This document shows positions 1 through 31,303 of a stretch of 64,000 nt of DNA, in pieces (the stretch's first letter is position 1; every line of letters starts with the position of its first letter). Position numbers and translations under genes: made by a program. This stretch comes from a virus, in IMG/VR virus record IMGVR_UViG_3300029953_000018, positions 20,498-84,497 of that record; one strand, written 5' to 3'. The notes under the pieces are model-generated. The model made no database searches. It saw only the letters and a program-made list of their open reading frames with translations, and was not told where the DNA came from.

Positions 1-881
1 GCGCAGAAGCTACAGATCGACAAGCATTGCTCTCGGAAAAGGGTTGGTCGGTCAACCAGTACAAGACCGCGCAGAATGCGATCCGTGAGCAGCGCGTACC
101 CCGTCGTGTTACCCGTTACATCGCCTTTGACGAAGAGCTGTGCTGGGTCTCTGGGTTGTACCTGGCCGAGGGGAACGTCACGCCGAAGCAGGTTCTTTTC
201 TCGCTGCACAGGGACGGGGCGGAATTCGTGGCGCGCCTCGATGCGTTCTTCCTGAAGAACTTTGGAACCGAAGGGTTTACCGCGGAAAAGAGTGAACAGG
301 GCATCCAGCGTGTCTACTCAAGCACAGTAGCCGCCCAGTTTTTCCATAGCCTGTGCGAGGGTACATCCGTCAGGAAGCGCGTGGCAGACGAGTTGAAGCA
401 CGCCGGGGAGCGGCGCGTCGCTTCACTTCTTCACGGCTACTTCGACGGCGACGGTTGTTACCACGAGGGCCACAAAACGGAGAAGCGTGACGCGATTACA
501 GCCAGCCGACAGCTCGCTGCCGACGTTCGCAATCTTCTTCTCGCCTATGGGTTCATCCCGGGTCTTACACGTCAAGAACCGGAAGCCTACTGCATCAACG
601 GGAAGACGGGCGTGTCCAGCGGTTCGTACAAGATATCGCTTCACGGCGGCATGGCCCTGCGTTTTGACGCTTGGCTACGCGGTGAGCCGCTCCCACACGT
701 AGTTCACTGCAACATCGGGCTCTTTAAGGACGGCTACGTGTGGCATCGCATCGAGGAGCTCCGGGAGGTAGAAGCCAAGGAGGTGATCGGTTTCCAGATG
801 ACCTGTGGTCCCGTCGTTACCCTCGAAGACGACACGGAAACGCACGGCACGTTCTGCTTGTGGGGCATGGCCTCAGTTAAC
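1..881 (+). mobile_element. Intein in portal gene with apparently intact LAGLIDADG endonuclease (N-terminal part outside window)
   Basis: Two LAGLIDADG-like blocks are visible: VSGLYLAEG at 147-173 and LLHGYFDGDG at 426-455. Both keep an acidic residue at the catalytic position (Glu and Asp). The C-terminal splice region has the pattern THGTF...SVN followed by Thr: the intein would end at Asn (879-881) and the first extein residue is Thr (882-884). The usual penultimate His is replaced by Val, which some inteins tolerate. The N-terminal splice junction lies outside the window. Confidence 0.75.
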
Positions 882-1922
882 ACGAACTACATCCCGATCA
901 TGCCCCTACCCCTGGGTAATCAGACCATTGGTGGGGATGGCAAAGCGCTCTTGATGAGTCAAGAAATGCAAATGCTAGGCGAGCAGATCATGATGGGCAT
1001 GGGTGTGCCCCGGGAGTTTTTGCAAGGCGGCTTGTCCTGGGCTGGCAGCAACGTGTCCATGCGCATGCTCGAGAACACGTTCTTGAGCTTCATCGGCCGA
1101 CAGCGGCAGATGGTCAATTGGATCATGCAGCTCGTCTCCCATTTCATGGGGTGGCCCAAGGTCAATGTACGGCTCAAGCCGTTCAAGATGGCCGACGACA
1201 TGCAACGTAAGAGCTACTTGTTCCAGCTGAACCAAGCGAACAAGATCAGCGACACCACGCTACTGGCGGACGCCGACCTCGATATTGAAGATGAGAACGA
1301 CATCATGATCCGCGAGAGCGCCAGGCGCTTGGCGGCGGTGAAGAAGCAACAGCTCGCGATGGCCGAGATTCAAGGCGAGAGCCAGGTCATCATGATGAAG
1401 ATGCAAGCCAAGGCGCAGCAAACGATGCAGCAAGCGCAGCAGCAACCTTTGGCACCGGGAGAGCCCGGGGGGCCCGATGGCGCCCTGAACGCGCAGCAAG
1501 CGCAACAAGCAGCACAGCCACCCCCCGTCCCCATGTTGCCTGGGCCTGCGCCTGCGCGCGGGTACTCTTCGAGCGTGCCAGCCGGCGCGCAGAGCTCCCT
1601 TAGTATCGATCAGGACTTGGGGTCGTCCGCCGGGAACGAGAAGATGCCCGTCGACTTGGTTCAGCTGGCCACTGGCTACGCCAAACAGATCGCGCAGCTT
1701 GATCCAGACATGCAAGAGATGGCGCTCAACGCTCTGGCGGCGCAGAGTCAAGACCTGGCCGATTTGGTGACTGAACTCATCAGTAAAGAACAACAGAGCG
1801 CCGCCCCCGCAGGCGACGCCGTCATGCTGGGCGACGCTCAGGGGGGCTCGGAAACGGGGGGCGTGGACATGCGTCCGTTGCCCGAAGCATTGCCCCCACG
1901 GCGGATGCAGGCGTTGATCTAG
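1..1922 (+). CDS. Portal protein, C-terminal part, interrupted by an intein (5' end outside window)
   Basis: The reading frame is open to the left edge (first full codon at base 3), so this is the end of a longer gene. Bases 1-881 read as the C-terminal part of an intein with two LAGLIDADG-type blocks. From the Thr codon at 882 the sequence reads as phage portal: GVPREFLQGG, then a long amphipathic region, followed by a Gln/Ala/Pro-rich tail that is probably disordered. Portals form the dodecameric ring through which DNA enters and leaves the capsid. The first possible in-window start is a TTG at 27, inside the intein, so I do not treat it as the gene start. The assignment rests on the portal-like motif and on the late genes to the right; an exact family was not identified. 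Confidence 0.7.
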   Translation, partial: AEATDRQALLSEKGWSVNQYKTAQNAIREQRVPRRVTRYIAFDEELCWVSGLYLAEGNVTPKQVLFSLHRDGAEFVARLDAFFLKNFGTEGFTAEKSEQGIQRVYSSTVAAQFFHSLCEGTSVRKRVADELKHAGERRVASLLHGYFDGDGCYHEGHKTEKRDAITASRQLAADVRNLLLAYGFIPGLTRQEPEAYCINGKTGVSSGSYKISLHGGMALRFDAWLRGEPLPHVVHCNIGLFKDGYVWHRIEELREVEAKEVIGFQMTCGPVVTLEDDTETHGTFCLWGMASVNTNYIPIMPLPLGNQTIGGDGKALLMSQEMQMLGEQIMMGMGVPREFLQGGLSWAGSNVSMRMLENTFLSFIGRQRQMVNWIMQLVSHFMGWPKVNVRLKPFKMADDMQRKSYLFQLNQANKISDTTLLADADLDIEDENDIMIRESARRLAAVKKQQLAMAEIQGESQVIMMKMQAKAQQTMQQAQQQPLAPGEPGGPDGALNAQQAQQAAQPPPVPMLPGPAPARGYSSSVPAGAQSSLSIDQDLGSSAGNEKMPVDLVQLATGYAKQIAQLDPDMQEMALNALAAQSQDLADLVTELISKEQQSAAPAGDAVMLGDAQGGSETGGVDMRPLPEALPPRRMQALI

Positions 1923-3565: not shown

Positions 3566-4806
3566 CAGGTAACCCCGATGTACTTTAGGTGCCCCTTGTC
3601 GTAGAGCAGGCCAGTGGTCTGCGCTACAGCTTCTTGAAGATGAGGGTCTGGATGGTTCCCGTCGTAATGGGCACGAAGTAACGTCTTCGCGGGGCGTGTA
3701 CAGACATCGGCGTAACCAAAGCTCGCCGCGTTGAACAGCAAGAGCCAGCAGCTAGTTGCCAGCTGCGCTCCCCTTACGGGGTCCGCTTCGTTAGCTACGT
3801 AAATGGCGCACGAGGACAGCACCGTGCGTACAACATCGAGCTGCTTAGGAATCTGCCAGCCCTTCAGGAGTACGTCTTCGGGATTGGGCAAATTCAGCTT
3901 CTTCATGAAGACGGCCCAGTCGGCAGCGAGCCCTGCGCCGACCAGGCCCGCAACGACGTCGAGCTGGGTGCGCTCTCCTAATCCAAGGCAGCGGGCGGTG
4001 GTGACGCCGTTGACAGCCCACGACCACGTACGGTGAGAAGGCCAGGGGCCCGCGGCGCGGGGGTCGTCTGCCTCTGGTTGGTCATAGAGGCGGTAGTGCT
4101 CCTTTCCATCATCCTCCCCCTCTCCCTTTTTCAGCTTGTAGGTGCCGCCCGACGACGCCAGAAAATCGTGGGTTACGCGTAATACAGCGCCGAAGTGAAG
4201 CCCCCAGTTGGCGCGAACGCGGGCTTCACTGTTGGTCAAATTGGGGATGTCGGGCTCGTACTCATCGTTCATGTATTCGTCCCATTGCTTCAGCGTAGGA
4301 TTTGTGTACGCGTAGTGCAGTACGCGGTTAGCGAAGGGGATTTCAAGCTCTCGGCCGTTAGCTGCAATATCTGGGGGGTTCATTGCGAGAACAATGCGTA
4401 CACCCGGGGGCAGCTTGTACTCACCGATGGTGCGCTCATTCATCAAGGAGAGAAGCGCTGCCTGTACTGCGCGCGGCGCGGATGAAATCTCGTCGAGAAA
4501 AAGAATGGCACGTTCGTCGTTGATGGCAGCGCGAATCTGGGGCAGCGCGCATTCGAGAGAGAAGCCAACGGGCGTCATAACCGGGTAGCCCCCGATGTGC
4601 TCCGGGATCTTCGTGGAGGCGAAGATCGGGTAGACGTGCAAGCCCAGCATCTTTCCGATGGCGTAGATGCGCTCGCTTTTGCCAACGCCCGACCCTCCAA
4701 TGGAGCATAAATTGATGCCCCAATTGCCTTCTTGGAAGGGCGCCATCGGCCCTTTGGCGAGCGGCGTGGACATGCTAGCCACCAGCAAACTCTCAAAGCG
4801 ATCCAT
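3565..4806 (-). CDS. MoxR/CobS-type AAA+ ATPase
   Basis: From the ATG at 4806 the protein is 413 residues. Walker A is GGSGVGKS (about 37-44), Walker B is ILFLDE (about 101-106), and the sensor-1 region is VLAMNPPD (about 140). IPEHIGGYP, between the Walker motifs, is typical of MoxR-like ATPases acting with VWA proteins. A TTG ten codons upstream is also in frame, but the ATG gives only a short overlap with the preceding gene. The family works as a remodelling chaperone with a VWA partner, here the next gene. CobS-like ATPases are known from several large phages. The C-terminal 150 residues are not assigned. Confidence 0.85.
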   Translation of the reverse strand: MDRFESLLVASMSTPLAKGPMAPFQEGNWGINLCSIGGSGVGKSERIYAIGKMLGLHVYPIFASTKIPEHIGGYPVMTPVGFSLECALPQIRAAINDERAILFLDEISSAPRAVQAALLSLMNERTIGEYKLPPGVRIVLAMNPPDIAANGRELEIPFANRVLHYAYTNPTLKQWDEYMNDEYEPDIPNLTNSEARVRANWGLHFGAVLRVTHDFLASSGGTYKLKKGEGEDDGKEHYRLYDQPEADDPRAAGPWPSHRTWSWAVNGVTTARCLGLGERTQLDVVAGLVGAGLAADWAVFMKKLNLPNPEDVLLKGWQIPKQLDVVRTVLSSCAIYVANEADPVRGAQLATSCWLLLFNAASFGYADVCTRPAKTLLRAHYDGNHPDPHLQEAVAQTTGLLYDKGHLKYIGVT

Positions 4807-5095
4807 GTTGTTTTCTTTCTTCGATGAATGCGACAACGTCAGGACAAAAACGAGCCGGCATGGCCGTTTTCAAGAAACTACCCCGTACAACAAGAAACCC
4901 GTCTTCATCCGCCAAGGTGAAGGGCACGTAGAGTCCCCCGGGAATACGCACAGCTGTTTTGCGGTTCTCTGCTTCTTGTAAACTAGCCCTAAAAAGGGCG
5001 CGTAGCGCTTCGTCGTCGAGAGCGCTAGCGGCCTGCCAGCGCTCTCGAGCACGACGAAAGGCATGCGGGTCCACGAGAACGTGGGTCAACCGCAC
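4793..5095 (-). CDS. Hypothetical protein, leftward operon
   Basis: A protein of about 100 residues with a GTG start preceded by a good AGGAG ribosome site. It overlaps the AAA+ gene start by 14 bases. The N-terminal half is charged and helical (Arg/Ala-rich). The second half looks beta-rich (GGLYVPFTLADEDGFLVV). No family recognised. The position suggests a function linked to the MoxR/VWA pair, but that is inference only. Confidence 0.6.
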   Translation of the reverse strand: MRLTHVLVDPHAFRRARERWQAASALDDEALRALFRASLQEAENRKTAVRIPGGLYVPFTLADEDGFLVVRGSFLKTAMPARFCPDVVAFIEERKQHGSL

Positions 5096-5356: not shown

Positions 5357-5982
5357 GTATTCCTTCGTGCAATGCAGTACCCGGCCGCCCGGTTACAAGG
5401 CCCGTTGCGCCAGCAGCGCGTGGTGATTCCTTCCACGCATTCGTTGTTCTGTAGAATGTGCTCCCCGGTACCCCACAGCCCTTCCAAGAGGTTCAGGTTG
5501 ATGTCGTTGCAGCATACGGAACAGATGTACTCAAAAGGCGGTATCGTAATAAAATCCAGGGCCCATTCGCGGTTGGGGGCGCGATCGGAAAGAACGAAGC
5601 TACCGTCATAGACGATCCCCGTTTTTTCCCCCTGAAGAATGTCGGAGCCGCACCCTGTGCAAGCGGCCACAACAAATGCACCGCTTACGAGCACGGGAGG
5701 CTGGTCCTTGTAAATGTAGCGAAGGGTTGAGCGTGTTTCATCCCAGCAATCTTCATGCAGATAGTAGGGATGGTACTGATACTCGCCATCTGCGGCCAGA
5801 AGGGGCAGAGGTACTTCGAAGACCCGCCCACAGTCATCTTGCGTAACGTTCGCAATGACAATGTGCAGTAGACAAATTGGCGTCTCAGCCGCTACGAGTT
5901 TGCTGCAGCTGTTGCACACGTGGTCACTTTGCATGACGACGCGGTTCGCCAGTGTTTCCCTAGCCAGGCTGCTCATTGCCAT
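5353..5982 (-). CDS. Cys-rich putative zinc-binding protein
   Basis: A 209-residue protein with several Cys pairs: CNSC near the N-terminus, CTGC in the middle and CSVCC further on. It also has single Cys residues near the C-terminus and HEDCWDE in the first half. This suggests two or three zinc-ribbon or treble-clef-like units. The ATG is preceded by GGGAGG, a strong ribosome site. The gene overlaps its neighbours by 4 and 10 bases. Function unknown. Confidence 0.6.
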   Translation of the reverse strand: MAMSSLARETLANRVVMQSDHVCNSCSKLVAAETPICLLHIVIANVTQDDCGRVFEVPLPLLAADGEYQYHPYYLHEDCWDETRSTLRYIYKDQPPVLVSGAFVVAACTGCGSDILQGEKTGIVYDGSFVLSDRAPNREWALDFITIPPFEYICSVCCNDINLNLLEGLWGTGEHILQNNECVEGITTRCWRNGPCNRAAGYCIARRNT

Positions 5983-6923: not shown

Positions 6924-9900
6924 ATGGCCTACCTCAATCCCAAGGAAGCGTTCGCCGACTTGAAGCAGAACGTCATCGAGGGGTTGCAAGCGCACTTCCC
7001 CATCACGGGGTCAAAGCAGAGCATCCATCTCGAGGGCGTCGACGTGCGTGAGCACGCACGGGATTTCAATGATCTAACGGAGCAACACAAGGCCAAAGTC
7101 GAGGGGCGCTCCTGGACGGTACCGGTCTTTGGGGCGCTGGCTCTGAAGAACAATCAAACGGGAGAGGTCCTCGATCGAAAGAGCATTCAGCTGGCGGACT
7201 TGCCGTACATGACCCAGCGGCACGCCTACATCGTTGATGGGCGGGAATACCAGGTGGATAACCAGTGGCGCCTTAAGCCAGGCGTGTACACGCGCCGTAA
7301 AGAAGACGGGGAGCTGAAGTCTCAGTTCAACGTGCAGGGAAAGCGCCCCTTCGACATCACGTTGGATCCAGAGACCAAGGTTTTTTCCATGATACGCGGG
7401 GACTCAAAGAACATCCCCGTCTACCCCCTCATGAAAGAGCTCGGTGTCGACGACGACACGCTTCAAGCATCCTGGGGGAAAGAGGTCTTGGCGGCGAACC
7501 GAGGCGCCCGCGCAGCGGGTACGGCGCTTGAGCGCTTCTACAAAGCTGACAAGAAGCGTGCACCGACGAGCACCGAAGAAGCGCGGCAGCACTTCATCGA
7601 TACGATGGAGGGTTCGAAGATACGCCCCGAGGTGACGCAGATAACGCTTGGGAAGCCCTATGACCACGTGAACGGGAATCTATTGCACGACGTTACGACC
7701 AAGATGATTGGCGTGCAACGCGGCGAGATTCCTGAGGATGAGCGAGACAGCCTCGTCTTCAAGGATTTGCACACGGTGGCCGACTTCGCCAAGAAGGGCC
7801 TGACCGACTGGAAGACGAAGAAAGCGCTCCAAGCGCGCACGGCACGTAAGATCAATACCGCCACCAGCATCCGCCAGGTGATTCACGGCAACATGTTCAG
7901 CAGGCCGGTTAAAGCTACATTCACCGAGAACGCGCTGGCGCGTACGGCCGATCAGGTCAACCCCGTCGAGATGCTGACTTCGAGCTTTCAAACGACCATC
8001 ATGGGGCCCGGGGGAATCCAGAGCGACAACGCCATCAGTGAGTCGGCAAAGCTCATAAACCCTAGTCAAATCGGGTTTTTGGATTCCATACATACCCCCG
8101 AAGGGTCCAAAACTGGGGTAACTTTGCACCTTCCGATGGGTGTCATTAAACGCGGGAACACGCCTCTCATCCCGGTGTACAACCTGCGCACGCAGCAGAT
8201 GGACCACATTGATCCTGTGACGTACCACAAGTCCGTGGTGATGATGCCCGACCAGGTAACGTGGAATAAGAGCACGCCCATCCCCGTGGGTAAGCGCGTG
8301 ATGGTGTCGCAGAAGGGCAACGAGCTGGTAGAGGCCGACGCTTCTTCCGCGGACTACGTGATGCGAAGCCCAAGTCAGCTTTTCAGCATGACTTCGAACT
8401 TGATTCCTTTTCTAGGAAACAATTCAGGTAACCGCGCGAGCTACGCCACCCATCATATCGAGCAGGCGATCAGCCTGCACGATCGGGACGCTCCCCTAGT
8501 CCAATCGGGAACAGGGCGGGCGACGGGTGTGCGTACCTTTGAAGAATTCATGGGACGGCAGTCTGCCCACATCGCGCCTACGGCGGGTACGGTGACAAAG
8601 GTCACGGCCGACGCGATCACCGTGCAGGATAAGGAGGGTAAGGACCACCACGTCACCATCTACAACAACTTTCCCCTCAATGATCCAAAGGCAGTTCTTC
8701 ATAGTACGCCGGCTGTAAAGGAGGGGGATGCGGTTACACCGGGGCAGCTTCTGGCCGATAACAACTTCACGCGCAATGGTCAGTTGGCACTCGGAAAGAA
8801 CTTGCTGGTCGCCTACATTCCTTTTAAGGGACACAACTTCGAAGACGGCATCGCTATTAGCCAGACCGCCGCCGCCAAAATGGCGAGTGAGCACATGCAT
8901 AAGCCGTCGATTACGTTGGGGCCTGATGCCATTACGGGCCTCGCGAAGTACAAGGCGTTGCACCCAACATCCTTCGAGACGCAGCAGCTAGAACACCTGG
9001 ATGACGCAGGGGTCGTACGCGTTGGTCAAACCGTGCGTACGGGCGATCCGCTGGTGGTGGCATCCCGCCCGTTTGACTCCAAGGGGTCGTACTCTCTGAG
9101 CAAGATTCGTAAGAGTCTAAGCAGTCAAACGCTGGACTCCAGCTTGACGTGGAAGAGTGAGCATCCCGGTGAAGTGGTGGGCATTCATCGAGATGAAGAG
9201 GGTAATGTCACCGTACATGTGCGCACCGTAGAGCCTATGCAAGTAGGCGATAAAATGTGTTACGACGAAGAAACGGAGATGCTTACCGCGCGCGGGTGGC
9301 TTCCAGTGGCGGATGTAACGTGTGCCGACGAAGTCTGCTCTCGTGTTGACGGGCACATTGTTTATCAAAGTCCCGATGCGGTTTTTGCTTACCCAACCGG
9401 CGGGCGTATGTACCGCATCAAAAGCCGGCAGGTCGACTTACTCGTTACCGATAAGCACGACATGTTTGTCAAGGAGCGGGGGGCCTCCGACTTTTTGTTG
9501 ACGCCGGCGGCTACGCTTTTTGGTCGTCGCATTCGCTACGCCAAGAGTGGGCTCTGGCAAGGGCATGACCCGGAGTACATTGCCTTCCCCGCTCTGTGCG
9601 TTCGTGCCGGTCAGTACGGTAACGGTTCTCGGATGTTGCCCGAAGTACGGTTGCCCGTCTCGGTGTACTGCATGCTCTTGGGGGCCTACGTGTCTAACGG
9701 GCACACGTTTGATCAGCCGGGGGACTACGGCATCGCCATTGACAAAGCAACGGGACCGCAATTCGAAGAACTGTGCCGTGCGCTAACCGAGGCGAACATC
9801 GCCTTCAGTCGTACGAACGGCGCGACCTGCTCCCGCGTTACCATCCATTCCAAGCAATGGCTTGAGCACTTTCGTGTTCTTGGGCGTGCACGCGTCAAGT

Positions 9901-12900
9901 ACATCCCGGAGCACATCTTCAGTTTTTCGCGGGACAGCCTCTGCATTCTCTTTAAGTGGTTGATGTGGGGGAATGGTTCTTCAATGATGACGGGGCGTCC
10001 TGTGGCGTACTTTACCTCGTCAAAACGTCTAGCCGATGATGTTCAGCGTTTGGCTCTGCACGTGGGCTACGCCGGTAACGTCCGTATTCACGCCGAGGAA
10101 GGGTGGCAAACGATCAAAGGTAAGCCCTCGTGGTGTGCGCGTTCCTACGAGGTGCGCATCGTTACAACGAAGCTGGAGCCTCAGGTTAATAACGGCCACG
10201 TAAAGAAGCAGCGTGCTCAAGAAGAATACTTCGTCGAGAACTACACCAAGCCGGTGTACTGCGTCCGTGTTCCCGGGCACGTTGTCTACGTTCGCCGAAA
10301 CGGTAAAGCTGTTTGGTCGGGCAACTCGGGGCGTCACGGGAACAAGGGGGTCATCACCACTATCCTTCCCGACAAAGAGATGCCGCACACAGCGGACGGG
10401 CGTCCAATTGAAGTCGTCTTGAATCCTAGCGGCGTTCCCGGGCGCATGAACATGGGTCAGGTCTTGGAAACGGCGGCCGGTAAGATTGCAGAGAAGACGG
10501 GGCAGACCTACATCGTCAACAACTTCGAGCACGGTGTAGACCAACTCGATCGTGTGAAGAAGGCGCTCAAAGAACACGGGCTTACGGATACCGAAGAAGT
10601 AATTGACCCCGTGAGTGGGCAATCCCTCGGTAAAGCTTTGGTAGGTCCTCAGCACCTTCTGAAGTTGAACTTTCAAATTGATAAGAAGGTGAGCGTGCGC
10701 TCTGGTATGCCTCTTGAGGGTGCCGAACCAGAGCATTATGATGCGGACACGCTCATTCCCGCGCAAGGGGGTAAGACGGGCGGGCAGTCCATGGGTAACC
10801 TGGGATTGTACGGGATGCTCGCGCACGGTGCGAAGCACAATATCCGGGAGATGCAGACTTGGAAGAGTGAGGGTGCGGATCGAAAAGAGCGTTGGGACAG
10901 CCTTCACAATGAAGTGTGGCGTGCCATTCAAACGGGGGAAACACCACCCCCTCCGAAGAAGACCTTCGCGTTCCAAAAGTTCGAGGACATGCTGACGGCT
11001 GCGGGTATCAACGTCACGAAGCGCGGGCATACACTTCAGTTGACTCCCCTCACCAATCAACAGATTCTCGCGCAAAGCGCGGGGGCGTTACCCAATCCGG
11101 GCTACAGCGTCATTTCGAAGAAGGGTAAAGCAGGGGATGAGCCCGTCGCGCGTAAAGGCGGCGTCTTCGACCCCGCGATTACGGGAGGACATGGGGGGCA
11201 GAACTGGTCGCACATTGTTCTTCCGGAGCCCGTCCCCAACCCCGTATTCGAGCATGCGATCCAGCGTGTTCTTGGCCTTAAAGAGGGGCAGTACGCGGAC
11301 ATCGTTAACGGTGAGGCCGCGGTTAAGGACGGCAAGGTTGTTCCCTTGGGAACAGAGGGCTCTAAAGCGGGGGGTGCCGCCATCGCGCATATGCTGGGTG
11401 AGCTCGACGTAAAAGAGGAGCTCAAGAAAGCTAAGGACGCTCTCGACAAGCTCAAGGTACCCGCGAACCTCGCGCATCGAGATGTTACTCCAAAACTTGA
11501 TCAGCTTTCGAAGCAGGTGCGCTACCTGTCCACTTTGGACAAGGCAGGGATTCATCCAAAGGACGCCTACGTTCTCGAAAACCTGCCCGTGATCCCACCC
11601 ATCATGCGGCCCGCAAGTTTTTTGCCGAACGGTAACGTACACGAAGCGGATCTGAACAGCTTGTACACGCGCGCTGGGCAGCTCGCGTCCGCAATGCAAT
11701 CCCCCAACTACAAGTACTTGAGCGACCATGACAAGAAGGAGGATCGCTTCAATTTGTACGACAGCGTGAAAGCGCTCATGGGGGTGGGGGAAGATTGGGC
11801 GACCCGGGGCAAGCAAGGCAAGGGAGTGCTCCTTCAAATCGCGGGCTCTGCACCCAAAGAAGGTTACTTCCAGAATACGCTCTTATCGCGTCGTCAAGAC
11901 ATGACCATGCGCGCCACCATCACGCCAGATGCATCCATGGGGCTTGACCAGGTGGGCCTACCGGAAAAGAAGGCGCTCGACTTGTTCCGCCCGTTTGTAG
12001 TGAACAAGCTGCAAGAAATCGGAGCCGCTAGTACACCACGGGAAGCGCATGCGCTTTTGTCTGAACCGGGGAAGAAAGATCCCGCGGTGTACCAGGCGCT
12101 CGATAAGGTGATGGCGGAGCGCCCCGTGCTGCTCAAGCGCGATCCGGTACTGCACAAGCACGGCGTGCAAGCTTTTTGGCCGCAGCGCGTCCCGGGGAAA
12201 GCCATTCAGATTCACCCCTTAACTACCGGGGGCTTCACGGCCGATTTCGACGGCGACACCATGGCACTCTACGTACCCATCGGGCGCGACGCTGTTGAAG
12301 AAGCCAAGGGCATGGTGCCTTCCCGAAATGTATACAACGAAGCCAGCGGCAAGGTTATTTACCAGCCGAGTCTGGAAGCCAGCCTGGGCTTGTTCAAACT
12401 CTCGCGTGTTACAGGGGATAGCGGAAAGACATTCGACTCCCATGCCGCCTTACTCAAAGCGGCACAAGCGGGAAAGCTGACGGTGACCGAAACCGCAACG
12501 GTCGATGGGAAGCCCACGACGGCCGGGCGTATCTTGTTGGCGTCCGCCGTTCCGGAATCGATGCAGCACGACATGTTGCACAACATGAATCTGTCCTTGA
12601 ATAAAAAGGGTACGGATCGCGTGTACACGCAGATCGCCAAGGAACACAAGGCCGCTTTCGCGGATTCGGCGGTCAAGCTGATGCGCCTCGGGTACGACGC
12701 CGCCTTCGGTGTTCTCAAGATCCCTAACCCGGCAACGCAGGGAACGGCGGCGGCTGTCGAGAAAGATGGGGAACACCCCAAGGACAACGTTCAGTACTTG
12801 CCTATGGGTACGCATTCCTTGAGCTTGAACGACTTTACGCCGGACAAGGCCACGCGGGATACTATCGTGGCGGCTGCAACTAAAAAGGTGGAACAGATCA

Positions 12901-14471
12901 ATGCGCGCACGGATCTTAGTGACGCCGAGCGAGAACAGCATGTGGTCAACACCTGGCACGATGCAACGGACCAGATGCTGAAAGAGCATGATACGAAGAT
13001 GACGGCCAATCCCAATAACCTGTACCTGATGCAGCAAGCGGGTGTGAAGCCGGGGCCTATTCAATACCGGCAGCTTCGCCTGGCCCCGATGCTCATGGTG
13101 GACAGCCAGAACCGTGTGATTTCGACGCCGGTAACGAAGAGTTACTCCGAGGGGTTGGACGTGAGCTCCTACTGGACGCAGATGGCCGGTGCGCGCCGAG
13201 GATCAGTACTCAAAGTTCAAGAGGTGCGCGAACCGGGGTACTTTACGAAGAAGCTCATCAACGTAACGATGGGCCTACAGGTTACGAAGCATGATTGCGG
13301 TACGGATAACGGGCTGCACTTGCCTATCCACTCCCAGGATATCTTTGACCGTACTCTGGCACAGGAACACACCATTGGGGGTGTGACGTACGCGAAGGAC
13401 ACGGTGATTACGCCGCAGGTAGCGTCCACAATCAAAGCCGCGGATAAGAACGCAACTTTGTTGGTCCGCTCAACATTGAAGTGCGACAACGGAACCGGCG
13501 TTTGTCAGAAGTGCGCGGGCCTGGCGCCCGATGGGCAGCATTATTCCTTGGGAACGAACGTTGGGATTTTGGCTACGCAAGCTCTTGGGGAACGCGCTAC
13601 TCAGCTCACGCTCAAAGCTTTTCATGGAGGCGGTGTAGCGGAGCGTGGCGCAAACTTGGTCAACGATTTTATTCGCGTCCAGCAGTTGACGTCTCTGCCC
13701 AAGGAAATCCCGAACGCGGCGCGTTTGGCTGCGAAGGATGGTGTGGTTGAGAAAATTGAAGAAGATCCCACGGGTCACGTGGCGTGGATTGGTGGCGTCA
13801 AGCACCACATCGCCAACGATGATCAGGGTAACCCGCTCTTCAAACCGCTCCCTGGGCAGACCGAGTCCACCTTACCCGGGGGCACGAAGTGGACGGGGTT
13901 GCAAGTCGGTATGAAGGTGCGCGCGGGAGACCCTTTGACGGATCCGGCGCGCACCTATGTCAATCCCCATGACTTGTACGCCGTCACGGGAAGTATGGCT
14001 CAAGTGCAAAACCACTTGGTGACGGAGCTGCATGACATTTACGGTCGCGAGGGCGTTCGCCGTCAGAACACGGAGACTGTGGTGCGCGCCCTTAGCGACC
14101 TGACCCGTGTCATTAACCCCGGGGATCATGAAACCATGATCAAGGGACAGTACGCGTCGCGTGCCAAAGTGCAAGAAGCCAACCGACAGCTTATAGCGCA
14201 GGGTCTTCAGCCGATTCAGCACACGCCGATTATGAAAGGTATCAGCGTGATGCCCCTTGAGGTACAAGAGGATTGGATGGCCAAGTTGAACCATGAGCGC
14301 TTGCGGGATCCAGCGCAGGGACTGCCCGCGAGTGCCGCCCTCGGGGCTTCCTCTGATCTGCACGGGAACAACCCGGTAGCAGGCATGGCTTACGGAGCCG
14401 AGTTTGGAATGACCAACGTCAACGTCTTCGACAAGCCGCACCTTAAAGACGTCGCGTCCCACGCATACTGA
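6924..14471 (+). CDS. DNA-directed RNA polymerase, natural beta-beta' fusion, intein-containing
   Basis: 2515 residues, about 2159 after splicing. The beta part shows TPEG (391-394) in the IGFLDSIHTPEG block and GDKM (775-778), continued after the intein by SGRHGNKGVI with lysine 1141, then NPSGVPGRMNMGQ and the terminal GGQSMGNL. The beta' part shows RPVLLKRDPVLHKHG, GKAIQIHPL and the metal-binding triad DFDGD (Asp1774, 1776, 1778). It also has the zinc-site cysteines 2125, 2187, 2194 and 2197, and a trigger-loop-like ATQLTLKAFHGGG near 2230. All main catalytic elements are thus in one chain. No alpha, omega or sigma gene is seen. It starts the rightward late module and its stop overlaps the next start (TGATG), so it may be expressed with virion genes. 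A leaderless start is possible: TACGCT lies eight bases upstream. Confidence 0.95.
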   Translation: MAYLNPKEAFADLKQNVIEGLQAHFPITGSKQSIHLEGVDVREHARDFNDLTEQHKAKVEGRSWTVPVFGALALKNNQTGEVLDRKSIQLADLPYMTQRHAYIVDGREYQVDNQWRLKPGVYTRRKEDGELKSQFNVQGKRPFDITLDPETKVFSMIRGDSKNIPVYPLMKELGVDDDTLQASWGKEVLAANRGARAAGTALERFYKADKKRAPTSTEEARQHFIDTMEGSKIRPEVTQITLGKPYDHVNGNLLHDVTTKMIGVQRGEIPEDERDSLVFKDLHTVADFAKKGLTDWKTKKALQARTARKINTATSIRQVIHGNMFSRPVKATFTENALARTADQVNPVEMLTSSFQTTIMGPGGIQSDNAISESAKLINPSQIGFLDSIHTPEGSKTGVTLHLPMGVIKRGNTPLIPVYNLRTQQMDHIDPVTYHKSVVMMPDQVTWNKSTPIPVGKRVMVSQKGNELVEADASSADYVMRSPSQLFSMTSNLIPFLGNNSGNRASYATHHIEQAISLHDRDAPLVQSGTGRATGVRTFEEFMGRQSAHIAPTAGTVTKVTADAITVQDKEGKDHHVTIYNNFPLNDPKAVLHSTPAVKEGDAVTPGQLLADNNFTRNGQLALGKNLLVAYIPFKGHNFEDGIAISQTAAAKMASEHMHKPSITLGPDAITGLAKYKALHPTSFETQQLEHLDDAGVVRVGQTVRTGDPLVVASRPFDSKGSYSLSKIRKSLSSQTLDSSLTWKSEHPGEVVGIHRDEEGNVTVHVRTVEPMQVGDKMCYDEETEMLTARGWLPVADVTCADEVCSRVDGHIVYQSPDAVFAYPTGGRMYRIKSRQVDLLVTDKHDMFVKERGASDFLLTPAATLFGRRIRYAKSGLWQGHDPEYIAFPALCVRAGQYGNGSRMLPEVRLPVSVYCMLLGAYVSNGHTFDQPGDYGIAIDKATGPQFEELCRALTEANIAFSRTNGATCSRVTIHSKQWLEHFRVLGRARVKYIPEHIFSFSRDSLCILFKWLMWGNGSSMMTGRPVAYFTSSKRLADDVQRLALHVGYAGNVRIHAEEGWQTIKGKPSWCARSYEVRIVTTKLEPQVNNGHVKKQRAQEEYFVENYTKPVYCVRVPGHVVYVRRNGKAVWSGNSGRHGNKGVITTILPDKEMPHTADGRPIEVVLNPSGVPGRMNMGQVLETAAGKIAEKTGQTYIVNNFEHGVDQLDRVKKALKEHGLTDTEEVIDPVSGQSLGKALVGPQHLLKLNFQIDKKVSVRSGMPLEGAEPEHYDADTLIPAQGGKTGGQSMGNLGLYGMLAHGAKHNIREMQTWKSEGADRKERWDSLHNEVWRAIQTGETPPPPKKTFAFQKFEDMLTAAGINVTKRGHTLQLTPLTNQQILAQSAGALPNPGYSVISKKGKAGDEPVARKGGVFDPAITGGHGGQNWSHIVLPEPVPNPVFEHAIQRVLGLKEGQYADIVNGEAAVKDGKVVPLGTEGSKAGGAAIAHMLGELDVKEELKKAKDALDKLKVPANLAHRDVTPKLDQLSKQVRYLSTLDKAGIHPKDAYVLENLPVIPPIMRPASFLPNGNVHEADLNSLYTRAGQLASAMQSPNYKYLSDHDKKEDRFNLYDSVKALMGVGEDWATRGKQGKGVLLQIAGSAPKEGYFQNTLLSRRQDMTMRATITPDASMGLDQVGLPEKKALDLFRPFVVNKLQEIGAASTPREAHALLSEPGKKDPAVYQALDKVMAERPVLLKRDPVLHKHGVQAFWPQRVPGKAIQIHPLTTGGFTADFDGDTMALYVPIGRDAVEEAKGMVPSRNVYNEASGKVIYQPSLEASLGLFKLSRVTGDSGKTFDSHAALLKAAQAGKLTVTETATVDGKPTTAGRILLASAVPESMQHDMLHNMNLSLNKKGTDRVYTQIAKEHKAAFADSAVKLMRLGYDAAFGVLKIPNPATQGTAAAVEKDGEHPKDNVQYLPMGTHSLSLNDFTPDKATRDTIVAAATKKVEQINARTDLSDAEREQHVVNTWHDATDQMLKEHDTKMTANPNNLYLMQQAGVKPGPIQYRQLRLAPMLMVDSQNRVISTPVTKSYSEGLDVSSYWTQMAGARRGSVLKVQEVREPGYFTKKLINVTMGLQVTKHDCGTDNGLHLPIHSQDIFDRTLAQEHTIGGVTYAKDTVITPQVASTIKAADKNATLLVRSTLKCDNGTGVCQKCAGLAPDGQHYSLGTNVGILATQALGERATQLTLKAFHGGGVAERGANLVNDFIRVQQLTSLPKEIPNAARLAAKDGVVEKIEEDPTGHVAWIGGVKHHIANDDQGNPLFKPLPGQTESTLPGGTKWTGLQVGMKVRAGDPLTDPARTYVNPHDLYAVTGSMAQVQNHLVTELHDIYGREGVRRQNTETVVRALSDLTRVINPGDHETMIKGQYASRAKVQEANRQLIAQGLQPIQHTPIMKGISVMPLEVQEDWMAKLNHERLRDPAQGLPASAALGASSDLHGNNPVAGMAYGAEFGMTNVNVFDKPHLKDVASHAY
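9258..10325 (+). mobile_element. Intein in RNA polymerase beta part, endonuclease probably dead
   Basis: 356 residues (779-1134), inserted between GDKM and SGRHGNKG, a nearly invariant catalytic site of RNA polymerase beta. It starts with Cys (CYDEETEMLT). Block B is LLVTDKH (TxxH). The end is VPGHVVYV...WSGN followed by Ser, so the penultimate His is Gly. Two LAGLIDADG-like segments are present, LLGAYVSNG and FKWLMWGNG. Both have Asn where the catalytic acid is expected, which predicts a splicing-competent element without homing endonuclease activity. Confidence 0.9.
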
Positions 14472-15751
14472 TGGGCCGCTACATCACCGATCCCCATACG
14501 GATGCGCGTACGCCGCTCGAGCGTACCAGCATGCGCAGTTCGTGGACGCAGCCCCACGGGGCTTCGCCCGCGTTTATTCACGAATCTCGCGTCTTAGACT
14601 TTAATTTGGCCACCTGGACCGTCGATGTACGCTCTCAGTTTGACCAGAAGTTCTACCCGAACATTCAGGTTGCGGGCCCTTACCTTCATCCTAATCGCGG
14701 AGAAGGTTGGTCGGTTGTTCCCGAAGTGAACGCAAAGTGCGTGGTATGTTTACCCAGTGACGGGCCCCCGCCTTTTGTGCTGGCTTTCATCATGCCTATG
14801 GAGACCCCCGAGGATCCCTCCTCGAGCGCTGCGGCAGAAGACGCAGCGGATACCACAGGTACTAACCAGGGTGCGGTTTTCTCTGGAGGTCGTGCACGGG
14901 GTAAGCCCGGGGACATGATATGGCAAGGGCGGGACGGCAACTTCGTGATTATGCATCGCGGGGGCGTTCTCCAGGTGGGGTCGACGGAGCTCGCCCAGCG
15001 CATTTACATACCGCTCGGCAATATCATTACGGACATCAGTCAAAACTACGAGCATCACAATACTGGGGGTTCCATTAACTGGGGACTGTCCACAAGCTAC
15101 ACCGACGATAATCCTCAGACCGAGTTTCGTCAGACGTTCCGGTTGTTTGCCAACGATGCCCAGGCGGATCTACGCATTGCTGTTGGGCAAGTGCATCAGC
15201 CTGTTCCAGAACCTTCGGGGGATGCAGGCGAGACCTCGAACAACACGGCGATGGGTGTAGGGGCCGACACTATCGTTGCTGAGTTCGTGATCGCACCGGC
15301 CGGCTTCAACGTGGAAGCGGGTTCGCCGGTGAGCGGCGTAGAGAACCTGACCAAGTTGAAGATGTTTTTTGACCGGTCAGGGTCTGGGTTCTTGCGCGCT
15401 GAAGCAAGCGTCAACATCCGCGTCAAAAATCAACTTCGTATTACGGCAGATCAGGGGATGACGCTGACCTCGGGTAAGTCACTGCAATTGCAGGCGACAG
15501 AAAATCTACGGTTGGTGGGAAGTACTGGGGTTCAGATTACGTCGGATAAGGGCGCGGTAACCATTAACGGAGGGGACACCCCCGTGGCCACCGTCGGCTC
15601 AGCGGTGAGCATTGTTATCGCAACGCCCGTACCTATTATCCTGAGCGCACCCGTACCGGGGACGCCAGGTGTCATCTCAGCGGGCGCGATGTTCACCGGC
15701 TTTATCACCAACGGATCCAGCACGGTGTTGGTCCCGGGGCCGCAAGGCTAA
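14471..15751 (+). CDS. Baseplate spike-like protein (gpV/gp5-type OB fold plus beta-helix)
   Basis: 426 residues, start overlapping the RNA polymerase stop. Residues about 40-105 read like the OB-fold domain of phage spike proteins: a short strand-rich stretch ending in GWSVVPEVNAKCVVCLPSDG...FVLAFIMP. After a Ser/Ala/Asp linker, GRDGNFVIMHRGGVLQVGS resembles the following beta segment. The C-terminal third has repeating short strands (ITADQGMTLTSGKSLQLQA, then VQITSDKGAVTING), typical of a trimeric beta-helix needle. The likely role is the membrane-piercing tip of the contractile tail. Recognised from pattern, not by search. Confidence 0.6.
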   Translation: MGRYITDPHTDARTPLERTSMRSSWTQPHGASPAFIHESRVLDFNLATWTVDVRSQFDQKFYPNIQVAGPYLHPNRGEGWSVVPEVNAKCVVCLPSDGPPPFVLAFIMPMETPEDPSSSAAAEDAADTTGTNQGAVFSGGRARGKPGDMIWQGRDGNFVIMHRGGVLQVGSTELAQRIYIPLGNIITDISQNYEHHNTGGSINWGLSTSYTDDNPQTEFRQTFRLFANDAQADLRIAVGQVHQPVPEPSGDAGETSNNTAMGVGADTIVAEFVIAPAGFNVEAGSPVSGVENLTKLKMFFDRSGSGFLRAEASVNIRVKNQLRITADQGMTLTSGKSLQLQATENLRLVGSTGVQITSDKGAVTINGGDTPVATVGSAVSIVIATPVPIILSAPVPGTPGVISAGAMFTGFITNGSSTVLVPGPQG

Positions 15752-20201: not shown

Positions 20202-20466
20202 GAGCAAACTCCACGTGCTCTCTTGTGAAACGTACATGCACGGCGCGCCAGCCAAGCCCCAAAGCAACCTGTCGGATAATGGCGCGGATGGACGTGTGTA
20301 GGTCCTTGGGCAATGAGGCAATCTGAAGCTTGGCGTGGTGCTCGCGTTTCTTGTCGTCGGTATCGAGGGACCAGCCACCAGGAAAGTGAGGGCCGCCGGA
20401 GCTCAACCAGCGCCAAACTTCCTGAAGGGCCTCTTGGGGGTCGGCTGTTTCTTCTTGAGGTTCCAT
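20074..20466 (-). CDS. Possible single leftward gene between packaging genes
   Basis: 130 residues, reading like a real soluble protein: acidic N-terminus, then alternating strands and helices (GLGWRAVHVRFTREHVEFAL) and a basic, Arg-rich tail. It would fill the 263-base gap before the terminase gene. Its ATG overlaps the terminase ATG on the opposite strand (shared CATG), and no ribosome site is visible, so the start is uncertain. It could be a moron-like gene or a chance open frame. Confidence 0.4.
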   Translation of the reverse strand: MEPQEETADPQEALQEVWRWLSSGGPHFPGGWSLDTDDKKREHHAKLQIASLPKDLHTSIRAIIRQVALGLGWRAVHVRFTREHVEFALKPYRVEVRQVQEAQREVFRQAARRKREGTRTNPEGGQTPAP

Positions 20467-22240
20467 GGGTAACGCAGCTTTAGCCTACGATGACGATGAT
20501 CTGGACGACACGTGGGATGGGGAAGAACCCTGGACACCCGAAGTCTTACCCGAGGAAGAGCCCCTTGAAGTAACCGCGCTTCAAAAGGTTGCGCCCGTCT
20601 TACCCATGATGCGCCCGTCACAATTCACGGCGCGGGCGTTCGTCCTACCAAAGGATGATGGAATGGGGTCAGGTCCTTTCTCTTTCAAAGGGAGACGGCA
20701 TCTTCCTCGCCTTTACGATACGCCCGCACGCCGCGTTCTTCTATGCTGCGCACGACAAGTTGAAAAGTCGACAGCGTTAGGTAACCGCGCGCTGTGTTAC
20801 TCAGCGCTCGTTCCTTCCATCCGCATTCTATACGTGAGCCCCTCGGGGTCGCAGACCAAAAACTTCTCACGGGATCGTATTAAGGAGCCTATCGAGACCA
20901 GCGAGCTTTTGCGCCAATTCACGACGCGCATGCTGTCGCAAAACGTCTTCGATAAGCAGTTCATCAACCGGTCGATGATCACGATGCGCTACGCGTATCT
21001 GAATGCAGACCGCGCCCGCGGTATCCCCGCCTGGCAGCTTTACTTGGATGAGATCCAGGATATTTTGCGCAGTTGCATCCCTGTTCTTGAGCAGTGCACG
21101 TCCCACGCACCCGATCGATGGAAGAGCTTTGTGTACGCCGGTACACCGAAGAGCCTCGACAACGTAATCGAGGAATACCGGGCCAATAAAAGCACGCAGG
21201 GGGAGTGGGTTGTTCCTTGCGAAGGGTGTAACACGTGGAACGTCCTCGGCGAGAAGAACATTGGTAAGAAGGGGCCCATTTGTAGCAAGTGCGGTAAGGC
21301 GATTGACCCGCAAGGAGAGCGCGCCCAGTGGGCCTGGATGGTTACGCCGGATGAAGAGCGTATCCATGTTCCCTTTGAGAGCTACCGCATTTCGCAGTTG
21401 ATGGTGCCTTGGAAGATTCGAAACTGGCACGAAGTTCTGCACGACTACGTTAACCATCCCCGCGCGCAGTTCATGAACGAATGCCTCGGCATTTCGTTTG
21501 AGTCGGGGACCCGGCCGCTAAATCAAGCGCAGCTTCGCGTGCAGTGCGGTACGCACTCCATGAGCGAGCTTGAATCCTTGCGGCATCGCTCCTTGGCGGA
21601 GCCTTTTTTCTTTGGCGTGGATTGGGGGTCTGGGGATAGCGCTTACACAGTTCTGACCATCGCGACGTACGTGAACGATCGCTTTCGGGTGATCTTCATG
21701 CACCGCTTCGTCGGCGAGGATGCGGACCCCGACGTTCAGGTTAAGAAGATTATCGAGATGGGGCATCACTTCAACGTGGCCACCATCGGTGCCGACCGTG
21801 GGTATGGCTTTGGTATGAACAGCCGCCTTGTACGCGCTTTTGGTAACAAACGCGTTCATCAATTTCAGCACTTGGGCAAGCTTACGAAGAAGGTGATCTT
21901 CGATCCCAAGTTGATGTACTGGAAGATGCACCGCACCGCGGTGATGAGCGATATCTTCGAGGCTATTAAAAAAGGCAAGGCGGAGTTTCCCCGATGGGAT
22001 GAGTTCAAGAAGCCTTATGCCGAAGACTTCACGAGCATCTACAGTGAGTACAACGAACGCCTACGAATGATCCAATACGACCATAAGCGTGGGAGCCCTG
22101 ACGATTCATTTCATTCGTTTATGTACGCGTGGCTTTCCTCTATGATCATGATCCCACGCCCGGACATCATTGCGCCGTCGCAGGAAAGCGAAGACGGTAA
22201 AGTGCTATCGCCTTACACGGGCCCCGTTTATCAGGGCTAA
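20465..22240 (+). CDS. terL: Terminase large subunit
   Basis: 591 residues. The ATPase part has ARQVEKS (residues 96-102) at the Walker A position, where relatives usually have Gly instead of this Glu. Walker B is LYLDEIQD (about 192-199). A Cys4 zinc-ribbon insertion follows (CEGC and CSKC, about 250-280). The nuclease part begins with FFGVDWGSGD (Asp386), the first metal ligand of the RNase-H-like fold, and a later DDSFHSFMYAW fits the last conserved acidic region. It powers DNA translocation into the prohead and cuts concatemers. A GAGG ribosome site lies just upstream of the ATG. Confidence 0.93.
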   Translation: MGNAALAYDDDDLDDTWDGEEPWTPEVLPEEEPLEVTALQKVAPVLPMMRPSQFTARAFVLPKDDGMGSGPFSFKGRRHLPRLYDTPARRVLLCCARQVEKSTALGNRALCYSALVPSIRILYVSPSGSQTKNFSRDRIKEPIETSELLRQFTTRMLSQNVFDKQFINRSMITMRYAYLNADRARGIPAWQLYLDEIQDILRSCIPVLEQCTSHAPDRWKSFVYAGTPKSLDNVIEEYRANKSTQGEWVVPCEGCNTWNVLGEKNIGKKGPICSKCGKAIDPQGERAQWAWMVTPDEERIHVPFESYRISQLMVPWKIRNWHEVLHDYVNHPRAQFMNECLGISFESGTRPLNQAQLRVQCGTHSMSELESLRHRSLAEPFFFGVDWGSGDSAYTVLTIATYVNDRFRVIFMHRFVGEDADPDVQVKKIIEMGHHFNVATIGADRGYGFGMNSRLVRAFGNKRVHQFQHLGKLTKKVIFDPKLMYWKMHRTAVMSDIFEAIKKGKAEFPRWDEFKKPYAEDFTSIYSEYNERLRMIQYDHKRGSPDDSFHSFMYAWLSSMIMIPRPDIIAPSQESEDGKVLSPYTGPVYQG

Positions 22241-30181: not shown

Positions 30182-31303
30182 ATGGCATCGGCACGGCAAG
30201 TCAACGATCTGTTCAACACACGCCTCGGCGAACCCGGGGGCAAAGAAAAGCTCGCCCAGTTTGGCGGCTCTTACATTCGCGATCGTCTTCGCGAGGTTTC
30301 GTTCGTTCGCAAGATCGTGCCCCCGGAGCAGGTTACGCGTACGGACTGCCAGCGTTCAACGCGGCATGACACGCTGGTCAAGATCGTCGACATCGAGCCC
30401 AAGAGCCGGGCCATGGCGATCAGCTTCCGGGGACAGCCCACGGCCCGGTTTATCCGGGGTGAGCGCGCCGAGGTAGCTTTCTTCACGATCAGCTCGGAGG
30501 TCTTTCAGAAGACCGAACAAGAGCTACTAGCGTATGAGATGCCCATCACCAAGATCATCGAGGAGAATTCGGTGAAGGACATCCAGGAGATCGAGGATCG
30601 CGAGTTCGTCATCCATATCGAAGCCGCGGTTCAGGCGCTTCAGCAGGAAGCCAACGGTGGAACGATCGTGTCGTTGAACGCTTCAGCTCTTCAAGGCAGT
30701 GCGCCTCCGGTCGAGTTCTCGGTTCGTAAGGGGGAGCTTGCGCGCGCCGCCAATACGAACGACGCGGTAATCCGCCCGGTTCAGCGCAAGGACATCGTGG
30801 AGGGCTTCAAGATCATCGACGGAAGACGCCTGCGGTGCGCACGCTTCCTTCTGACCGAAACTGACTTCGACGATGTCCTGTCCTGGACCGTGGAAGACAC
30901 CGGCGATCGGATTCAGTCGGAGACCACCGTCGACGGGTACAAGTACAATTTGCTCGTGGGCCGCCCGTACATCCGGACTGTGAAGACCGACATCCTGCGC
31001 CGTGGGAACATCTACTTCTTCGCGGAACCCGAGTTCTTCGGGAAGTTCTACGTGCTTAACCAGACCAAGTTCTACATCGACAAGGTCGCCAACACGATCA
31101 CCTTCCAGGCATGGGAGGACATCGCGATGGCGGTCATCAACATCGCCAGCGTTGGCAAGATCGAGCTCTACTCGGCGGACGCTACGGCCAACGATGAGGA
31201 CACGCTGCTCGACAACTTCATTCCGGTGGCTGAGGATAGCCTTGGCGCCATCAACAACCGCGTGAACGAAGGGCTCAAATTCCCCCAGATCGTCGCCAAT
31301 TAA
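30182..31303 (+). CDS. Major capsid protein (HK97 fold)
   Basis: 373 residues, with a strong AAAGGAG ribosome site and a terminator right after, as expected for the most abundant virion protein. An N-terminal arm with GSYIRDRLREVSFVRKIVPPEQV leads into a long helix-plus-strand core. EQELLAYEMPITKIIEENSVKDIQEIEDREF fits the spine-helix region. The C-terminal domain, FYIDKVANTITFQAWEDIAMAVIN, resembles the P-domain/A-domain end seen in large phages. No KTAS motif is present, so any processing of it would use another site. Confidence 0.8.
   Translation: MASARQVNDLFNTRLGEPGGKEKLAQFGGSYIRDRLREVSFVRKIVPPEQVTRTDCQRSTRHDTLVKIVDIEPKSRAMAISFRGQPTARFIRGERAEVAFFTISSEVFQKTEQELLAYEMPITKIIEENSVKDIQEIEDREFVIHIEAAVQALQQEANGGTIVSLNASALQGSAPPVEFSVRKGELARAANTNDAVIRPVQRKDIVEGFKIIDGRRLRCARFLLTETDFDDVLSWTVEDTGDRIQSETTVDGYKYNLLVGRPYIRTVKTDILRRGNIYFFAEPEFFGKFYVLNQTKFYIDKVANTITFQAWEDIAMAVINIASVGKIELYSADATANDEDTLLDNFIPVAEDSLGAINNRVNEGLKFPQIVAN

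Follow-up and report, generated by a model that had tools for sequence, protein, structure and literature searches.

Can a tailed phage encode the core of a multisubunit-type RNA polymerase (RNAP) as one polypeptide, and carry it with an intein lodged beside the active site? The question is raised by a gene in a 64,000-nucleotide stretch of viral DNA (hereafter the window), which corresponds to bases 20498-84497 of the 84,497-base IMG/VR record IMGVR_UViG_3300029953_000018. As argued below, this gene very probably encodes such a core, in which beta, a short junction and beta' follow one another in a single chain that is interrupted by a splicing intein, once a homing element.

Beta and beta' in one frame

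The frame runs from ATG to stop with neither an internal stop codon nor an ambiguous base (Table 1) and, as the original prediction had it, holds beta and then beta' motifs in order over 2515 residues: TPEG at residue 391, FEDG at 639, GDKM at 775-778 and GRHGNKG at 1136-1142 precede the hallmarks of beta'. The order of the Pfam matches (Rpb2_3, Rpb2_6, then Rpb1_1, Rpb1_2 and Rpb1_5) agrees with this, the match to Rpb1_1 and that of the insert to LAGLIDADG_3 both being below their cut-offs. Solved bacterial beta' chains are matched at E 1.2e-174 by a profile built from 23 relatives that lack inteins (among the best 60 of 219 PDB matches), and structure prediction gave a bacterial fold for both halves of one such relative, L030. 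The beta half of L030, with a predicted local distance difference test score (pLDDT) of 83.6, superimposes on cyanobacterial RpoB over 852 residues (Z 36.9, root-mean-square deviation (rmsd) 3.8). For the beta' half (pLDDT 85.8), the top structural match is an integrative RpoC model (Z 32.3, 1045 residues), which is tied within a Z of about 1 with the experimental RpoC structures of M. smegmatis (Z 31.7, rmsd 5.0, 1035 residues) and T. thermophilus (Z 31.2, rmsd 3.2, 1032 residues).

An assembly artefact is very unlikely since the same 2515-residue frame recurs in five further IMG/VR contigs, which differ from the window by 2 to 5 nucleotides, none of them creating a stop, and since the fusion is found in many relatives. 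Neither stop codons nor assembly joins, the two flaws that the original prediction had allowed for, were thus found. The contig L005, 99.99% identical to the window over 24 kb, belongs to a 167-kb record of the window species (L005/G001); judging from the records of relatives, the genome is probably 170-200 kb long.

That the polymerase is phage-encoded, as first claimed, is borne out by the portal, terminase and head genes that surround it. A portal ortholog is found in 120 of 146 related loci, in 113 of the 146 upstream of the polymerase. For the 426-residue gene overlapping the stop codon of the polymerase, an ortholog follows immediately in 87 of the 130 loci whose flanks are long enough, a set in which some loci share a contig. 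These locus counts, like the 308 given further on, include overlaps from the same contig being fetched repeatedly, and only the 192 and 191 distinct sequences discussed below are collapsed counts. No alpha gene was found in any of 20 phage records by a search that was positive in 13 of 14 control genomes, while sigma-70 region 2 was detected in five of these records and region 4 in nine (six over cut-off). A profile search found one RNAP locus per record in 20 of 20, but would miss a second enzyme that had diverged strongly.

With both subunits in one chain and no alpha gene found in related records, the fusion would take over the role of the alpha dimer as an assembly platform. The templates of the enzyme would be phage genes, most likely those of the middle or late phase once host RNAP has begun the infection, and a sigma-like or some other phage factor would guide it. 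We lean, on balance, towards a polymerase that is made during infection rather than packaged. It is possible, if distinctly less favoured, that it is packaged in the virion and injected for transcription of the early genes, as are the virion RNAPs of phiKZ-like and crAss-like phages, and both the proximity of structural genes, with the portal ortholog so often upstream, and the finding of a sole RNAP in every record would suit such a role. However, the location of a gene is weak evidence by itself, Pfam and PHROG searches of the frame revealed no tail or ejection domain, and a single chain of 2159 residues would need to pass through the tail.

Table 1. Coordinates in the window of the polymerase gene, its parts and its phage neighbours.
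Feature	Position	Strand	Basis
Portal gene, 3' part (the gene begins before the window), including the final portion of a separate intein at 1-881; ortholog of the annotated Salmonella phage Arash portal	1..1922	+	
Fused beta-beta' RNA polymerase precursor, 2515 aa with intein, 2159 aa spliced	6924..14471	+	Open reading frame, motifs, Pfam
N-extein: beta to GDKM, residues 1-778	6924..9257	+	Motif positions
Intein, residues 779-1134: C1, TxxH and SGN^S retained; LAGLIDADG acids replaced by Asn	9258..10325	+	Alignment with relatives
LAGLIDADG motif 1 remnant (SNGH, in LLGAYVSNG); N925, D or E in 8/8 related inteins	9693..9704	+	
LAGLIDADG motif 2 remnant (WGNG, in WLMWGNG); N1017, D in 8/8 related inteins	9966..9977	+	
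C-extein: remaining beta from SGRHGNKG, then beta'	10326..14468	+	Motif positions
Beta/beta' junction, approximate (LTPLTNQQ to GGVFDP); N-terminal beta' zinc ribbon absent	11040..11174	+	Alignment
Catalytic Mg-binding motif TADFDGD, residues 1772-1778	12237..12257	+	Motif
Beta' Cys4 zinc site, C2125 to C2197 (C2125 ... CDNGTGVCQKC)	13296..13514	+	Motif
Trigger-loop block KAFHGGG, from residue 2231	13614..13634	+	Motif
426-aa gene overlapping the polymerase stop codon	14471..15751	+	
Large terminase subunit	20465..22240	+	
Major-head-protein-like gene	30182..31303	+	PHROG match only, no Pfam match

An intein beside the active site

The intein comprises C779-N1134 (356 residues) and its borders, set by intein-free relatives such as L030, confirm that it sits where it had first been placed, between GDKM and GRHGNKG. 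It has the traits of a class 1 LAGLIDADG intein (Cys1, TxxH, a C-terminal Asn, Ser at +1 and an exact empty site in relatives), with Gly rather than His as its penultimate residue. C1, T64xxH67, VYC and SGN are invariant in nine of nine related inteins, and a profile of these nine matches the solved inteins 7qsu (E 2.9e-12) and PI-PkoII (E 7.4e-12). The window intein itself matches the NCBIfam models of intein-bearing DnaB, PolII and GyrA, below the cut-offs set for the whole proteins. The precursor would splice itself post-translationally, joining GDKM to SGRHGNKG, and because the insert parts these motifs the enzyme would work only afterwards. The original claim of an enzyme inactive before splicing is supported in the sense that, with beta split between two conserved motifs, activity of the precursor is unlikely.

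Of the nine inteins compared, only that of the window phage has lost the endonuclease acids, a degeneration which, like the inserts at nine other polymerase sites in relatives, goes beyond the original prediction. The window intein probably still splices but no longer homes. That its endonuclease is active in spite of these changes, so that the intein would still be mobile, is very improbable: the LAGLIDADG region can be recognized by a weak Pfam match and by the nine-intein profile, but both of its acidic positions have become Asn, in the five near-identical contigs as well, and in all five of these the Gly after the second Asn has in addition become Ser. The portal gene has an intein of its own (445 residues; G000:C1:20044-21378), with acidic residues at both LAGLIDADG-like motifs, which is perhaps still mobile.

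How the intein came to the polymerase can be approached through its relatives. Since the closest of them, L021 (74% extein identity) and next L030 (70%), have no intein at this site, L021 having another at DFDGN^ and L030 none, the window intein was probably gained recently. It would be a former homing element: having invaded the site, probably out of a related phage, it would have lost its endonuclease later. As expected from lateral homing, the intein is more similar than the exteins between the window and L071 (49.9% versus 41.5%) and between the window and L119 (48.9% versus 39.9%); for L043, the figures are 33% and 30%.

Several points weigh against a working phage polymerase core that harbours a former homing element. 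Splicing and transcription by the window polymerase are activities predicted from sequence. The structural models represent two halves of L030 instead of the window protein in its spliced form, and in the beta model confidence is low for residues 902-969. The catalytic motif, TADFDGD, deviates from the NADFDGD found in 87 of 101 phage sequences, T replacing N in only two, of which the window is one. Sigma-70 regions 2 and 4 were both not found in the record of the window species (L005/G001). Lastly, intein identity is lower than extein identity between the window and L151 (39.3% versus 44.3%), between L071 and L151 (40.6% versus 47.4%) and, at site 790, between L014 and L110 (50.3% versus 60.2%); as these pairs show no excess, a lateral origin is not firm, and homing of this kind is likely for some inteins and not for all. 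The altered catalytic motif, together with the decay of the endonuclease within, could also be expected of a dead relic, yet such a fate is most improbable for a gene whose 2515 codons are free of stops, here and in the five sister contigs, and which retains both its splicing residues and the acids of DFDGD. A polymerase core that is functional once spliced remains the preferred reading.

A family of fused phage polymerases

Relatives were collected in IMG/VR by four scans around the window protein and its relatives and one with L114, yielding 308 loci that collapse to 192 distinct sequences; the alignment scans each kept the best 80 of at least 115, 178 and 462 confirmed matches, ranked by likeness to the fused query. 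The phylogenetic tree (FastTree, 1973 columns) was built from 122 of the available sequences, 101 from phages and 21 from bacteria, leaving aside archaea, eukaryotes and the published multimeric RNAP-encoding Caudovirales (mReC), all sequences shorter than 1400 residues and nine excluded manually, of which eight run off the edge of their contig and the ninth, L129, is complete but of the split kind described below.

In this tree, the 101 phage polymerases form a single clade (support 1.0, stem 0.79) relative to the 21 bacterial RNAPs. In the segment where bacteria have the N-terminal beta' zinc ribbon, 100 of these phage polymerases lack Cys altogether and the other has one, compared to 4-6 Cys in each of the 21 bacterial sequences. 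At the second zinc site, each of the first three Cys is kept in 92 of the 101 phage sequences and the fourth in 90, with five gaps at each position. It can practically be dismissed that the gene is a bacterial chromosomal rpoBC fusion, or a recently captured host gene, within a phage contig: fusions with beta followed by beta' in one frame do exist in bacteria, but the five found here, unlike the phage polymerases, group inside the bacterial clade and keep the zinc ribbon that is absent from all 101 phage sequences and present in all 21 bacterial ones, and the window polymerase has phage genes on both sides. Bacterial contamination is ruled out by the same tree position, neighbours and ribbon loss, and the alignment to a bacterial rpoBC fusion that the original prediction had reckoned with was not seen, the window polymerase being outside that group. 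The five bacterial fusions (L167, L169, L172, L177 and L200) are frames of about 2500-2600 residues from contigs named Omnitrophota and Vermiphilus, and are grouped in the tree; an rpoBC fusion also occurs in Helicobacter. Three members of the phage clade, L154, L155 and L157, come from contigs filed as Deltaproteobacteria, Thermoguttaceae and Bacillus genomes, and these are probably phage contigs that were binned into bacterial assemblies.

The full-length fusion, which had been thought unusual for a phage, is instead the usual form among the relatives collected, since 155 of the 192 distinct ones, all of them best-scoring IMG/VR matches, have it in one complete frame and 16 more have it in a frame truncated at the edge of the contig. 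The supposed rarity was also at odds with the literature, because phages with a multisubunit-type RNAP apart from the cellular ones had been reported as mReC in 2020, in the main text of PMC7481178. In 17 relatives, beta is fused to the first part of beta' and the C-terminal third is split off after the catalytic barrel; the remaining four are cut, broken or recoded, three of them (L029, L061 and L062) ending at a contig edge too early to be judged. Separate beta and beta' genes were not seen among the best-scoring matches of the three alignment scans, although a ranking by the fused query could miss them. Two PHROG families that resemble separate phage beta' and beta, phrog_25354 and phrog_24349, may reflect bacterial chromosomes in the phage set, judging by length. 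One fused polymerase, L131 (5001-11006), has five in-frame stops, all TGA, and a tmRNA match at 14876-15249 (-) in its locus. It is not a broken gene, since the frame opens under code 4, whereas reading TAG as Gln failed to open it.

In the split subclade, beta' breaks about 85 residues past DFDGD and the second piece, where it was recovered, is a downstream gene of about 610-640 residues, longer in L139 (1239 residues) and L137 (an open frame of 1397). Of six C-terminal pieces whose match begins near the break, four start to match L030 at about residues 1513-1516, and as cyanobacterial RpoC2 aligns to it from about residue 1527 the two breaks are close to each other. The ten split sequences in the tree are nested together as a single clade (support 0.999). 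Closest to the root of the phage clade are L141/L142/L157 and L127, every one of them fused; the node that decides which of these branched first has a support of 0.478. On these long branches, it is likely that the polymerase was fused first and re-split later. The cultured phages Arash and Vibrio D181 are of the split kind. In D181 (L074), group I introns lie at 9500-9780, within the polymerase gene, and at 5703-5910, just upstream of the portal ortholog. Its polymerase is not a separate three-piece type, as one break is the intron and the other the common beta' split; the pieces are carried as hypothetical proteins in the deposited annotation.

Inserts of the kind seen in the window are widespread in the family. 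Counted by alignment as inserts longer than 120 residues, in 191 distinct proteins and omitting sequences of fewer than 1400, intein-like inserts were found in 24 proteins: 33 inserts at ten sites, one of them (in L057) cut by a contig end. The sites are TPEG^ (four inserts), residue 589 (one), GDK[ML]^ (seven), HGNK^ (one), HGNKGI[VI]T^ (two), LNP^SGVPG (one), K^S at 963 (two), DFDG[D/N]^ (12), CQK^C in the zinc site (one) and FH^ in the trigger loop (two). The inserts of L151 and L312 that this count had at site 790 belong at site 779. The ends are intein-like, with Cys or Ser as the first residue in most and Asn or Asp as the last; splicing residues were aligned for nine inserts, and ten that were scanned against NCBIfam gave matches below the curated cut-offs. 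Mean conservation at the ten sites is 0.69, compared to 0.51 over all alignment windows, and none of 20,000 random draws reached 0.69; three of the ten sites are neighbours, so this test overstates their independence, and sites 589, 963 and 1846 are outside the top fifth of conservation. L151 carries four inserts and L315 three. In L151 (5001-15776), the polymerase frame extends to 3591 residues, with inserts at GDKL, REMQTLK, the zinc site and the trigger loop. Turnover seems fast, because L014, L052, L054 and L151 belong to one clade and yet have different sets of inserts.

At the catalytic motif, the last residue of most inserts is Asp and not Asn. In three of them, in L021 (at about 14264), L025 (at about 14261) and L303 (at L030 residue 1428), Asn precedes the first Cys of the insert (DFDGN^C...VWD^T). 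Ordinary splicing would here yield DFDGN instead of DFDGD, putting Asn in the place of the Mg-binding Asp, and a further step would be needed for an active enzyme. Because of this, and because the window intein keeps its splicing residues without an endonuclease, it could be proposed that splicing at catalytic motifs serves as a switch by which the polymerase becomes active later or under certain conditions, and that the inteins are not merely parasites, but we consider this doubtful.

Several kilobases downstream of the polymerase, five loci have a gene of 950-1046 residues with a stretch that resembles the window intein (L015:14253-17126, L019:22157-25168, L039:22246-25098, L042:13585-16725 and L050:22221-25103), so that a second gene may also have been invaded by an intein. 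Between portal and polymerase, at 2297-4836 (-) in the window, a VWA-like DUF2201 gene adjoins an AAA ATPase gene; their orthologs are found in 50 and 53 of the 146 loci, some of which share a contig.

Precedents and significance

The closest precedent is the mReC of Weinheimer and Aylward (2020), which according to the main text of PMC7481178 are likewise tailed-phage metagenome contigs, with beta and beta' genes described as apart from cellular RNAPs and lying beside phage hallmark genes. Two of the three representatives named there come from metagenome 3300017989, which is also the source of the family member L114. On the other hand, that main text names a fusion for crAssphage only and does not mention inteins, and its selection required NADxDGD, from which the window departs (TADFDGD). 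It also reports that eight mReC head proteins matched PF07068 and that three contigs exceeded 200 kb. PF07068 was matched in none of 26 records here, in a search that was equally silent in all 14 control genomes, and the terminase family PF03237 in ten of 26 (four over cut-off); the window terminase matches PF05876. Given the same kind of source, an RNAP that also stands apart, here from the 21 bacterial sequences, and a shared metagenome, the published mReC lineage probably includes the present family, which would make up much of it. The window is not filed as a member, because its motif differs from NADxDGD. An RNAP1 gene annotated as beta and beta prime, said in the text of PMC10159854 to cluster distantly with mReC, may be another relative.

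The phiKZ-type RNAPs are also phage-encoded, and alpha has not been found for them either, as set out in the text of PMC7598289. However, these are enzymes of at least 4-5 chains, two per phage in that account, whereas the window polymerase is one frame (two chains in the split subclade) and its relatives have a single locus per record. By the same account the phiKZ-like enzymes share the cyanobacterial split, and the split subclade breaks at about the same place. The crAss-like and YonO-type RNAPs resemble the present enzyme in having both barrels in one chain, and in phages (main texts of PMC7481178, PMC7824862 and PMC10770324). The crAssphage RNAP, though, has no recognisable match to the COG0085 or COG0086 profiles (main text of PMC7481178), unlike the window-type polymerase, which matches Pfam families and solved subunits over most of its length. 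Fused-barrel derivatives of multisubunit RNAPs are mentioned in the text of PMC10770324, where phages of the present kind are not named. For the inserts, the nearest parallel lies in the RNA polymerase inteins of eukaryotes and their viruses, which also occupy several conserved sites near the active site, in the second-largest subunit. Six such sites are described in the text of PMC1635734, compared to ten in the phage family, in both beta and beta' and including the Mg motif, zinc site and trigger loop. In the open-access literature, which leaves out most subscription papers and supplements, no description of this fusion or these inteins was found. Within that literature, what is new is that a large phage family commonly has the complete fusion, that this fusion has apparently been re-split and that inserts are spread over ten sites.

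A core encoded by one gene, apparently without alpha and with a near-complete bacterial beta and beta' fold, would offer an unusually simple route to making and studying a cellular-type RNAP. Because the fused form is basal and the split one nested, fusion of the enzyme seems to be the early event and its re-splitting, near the break of the cyanobacterial and, according to the text of PMC7598289, phiKZ-like enzymes, a later one, which bears on the origin of the fragmented polymerases of jumbo phages. Finally, ten insert sites in one enzyme provide a rich natural experiment on why inteins come to lie at conserved residues and on whether they ever regulate the proteins that they interrupt.

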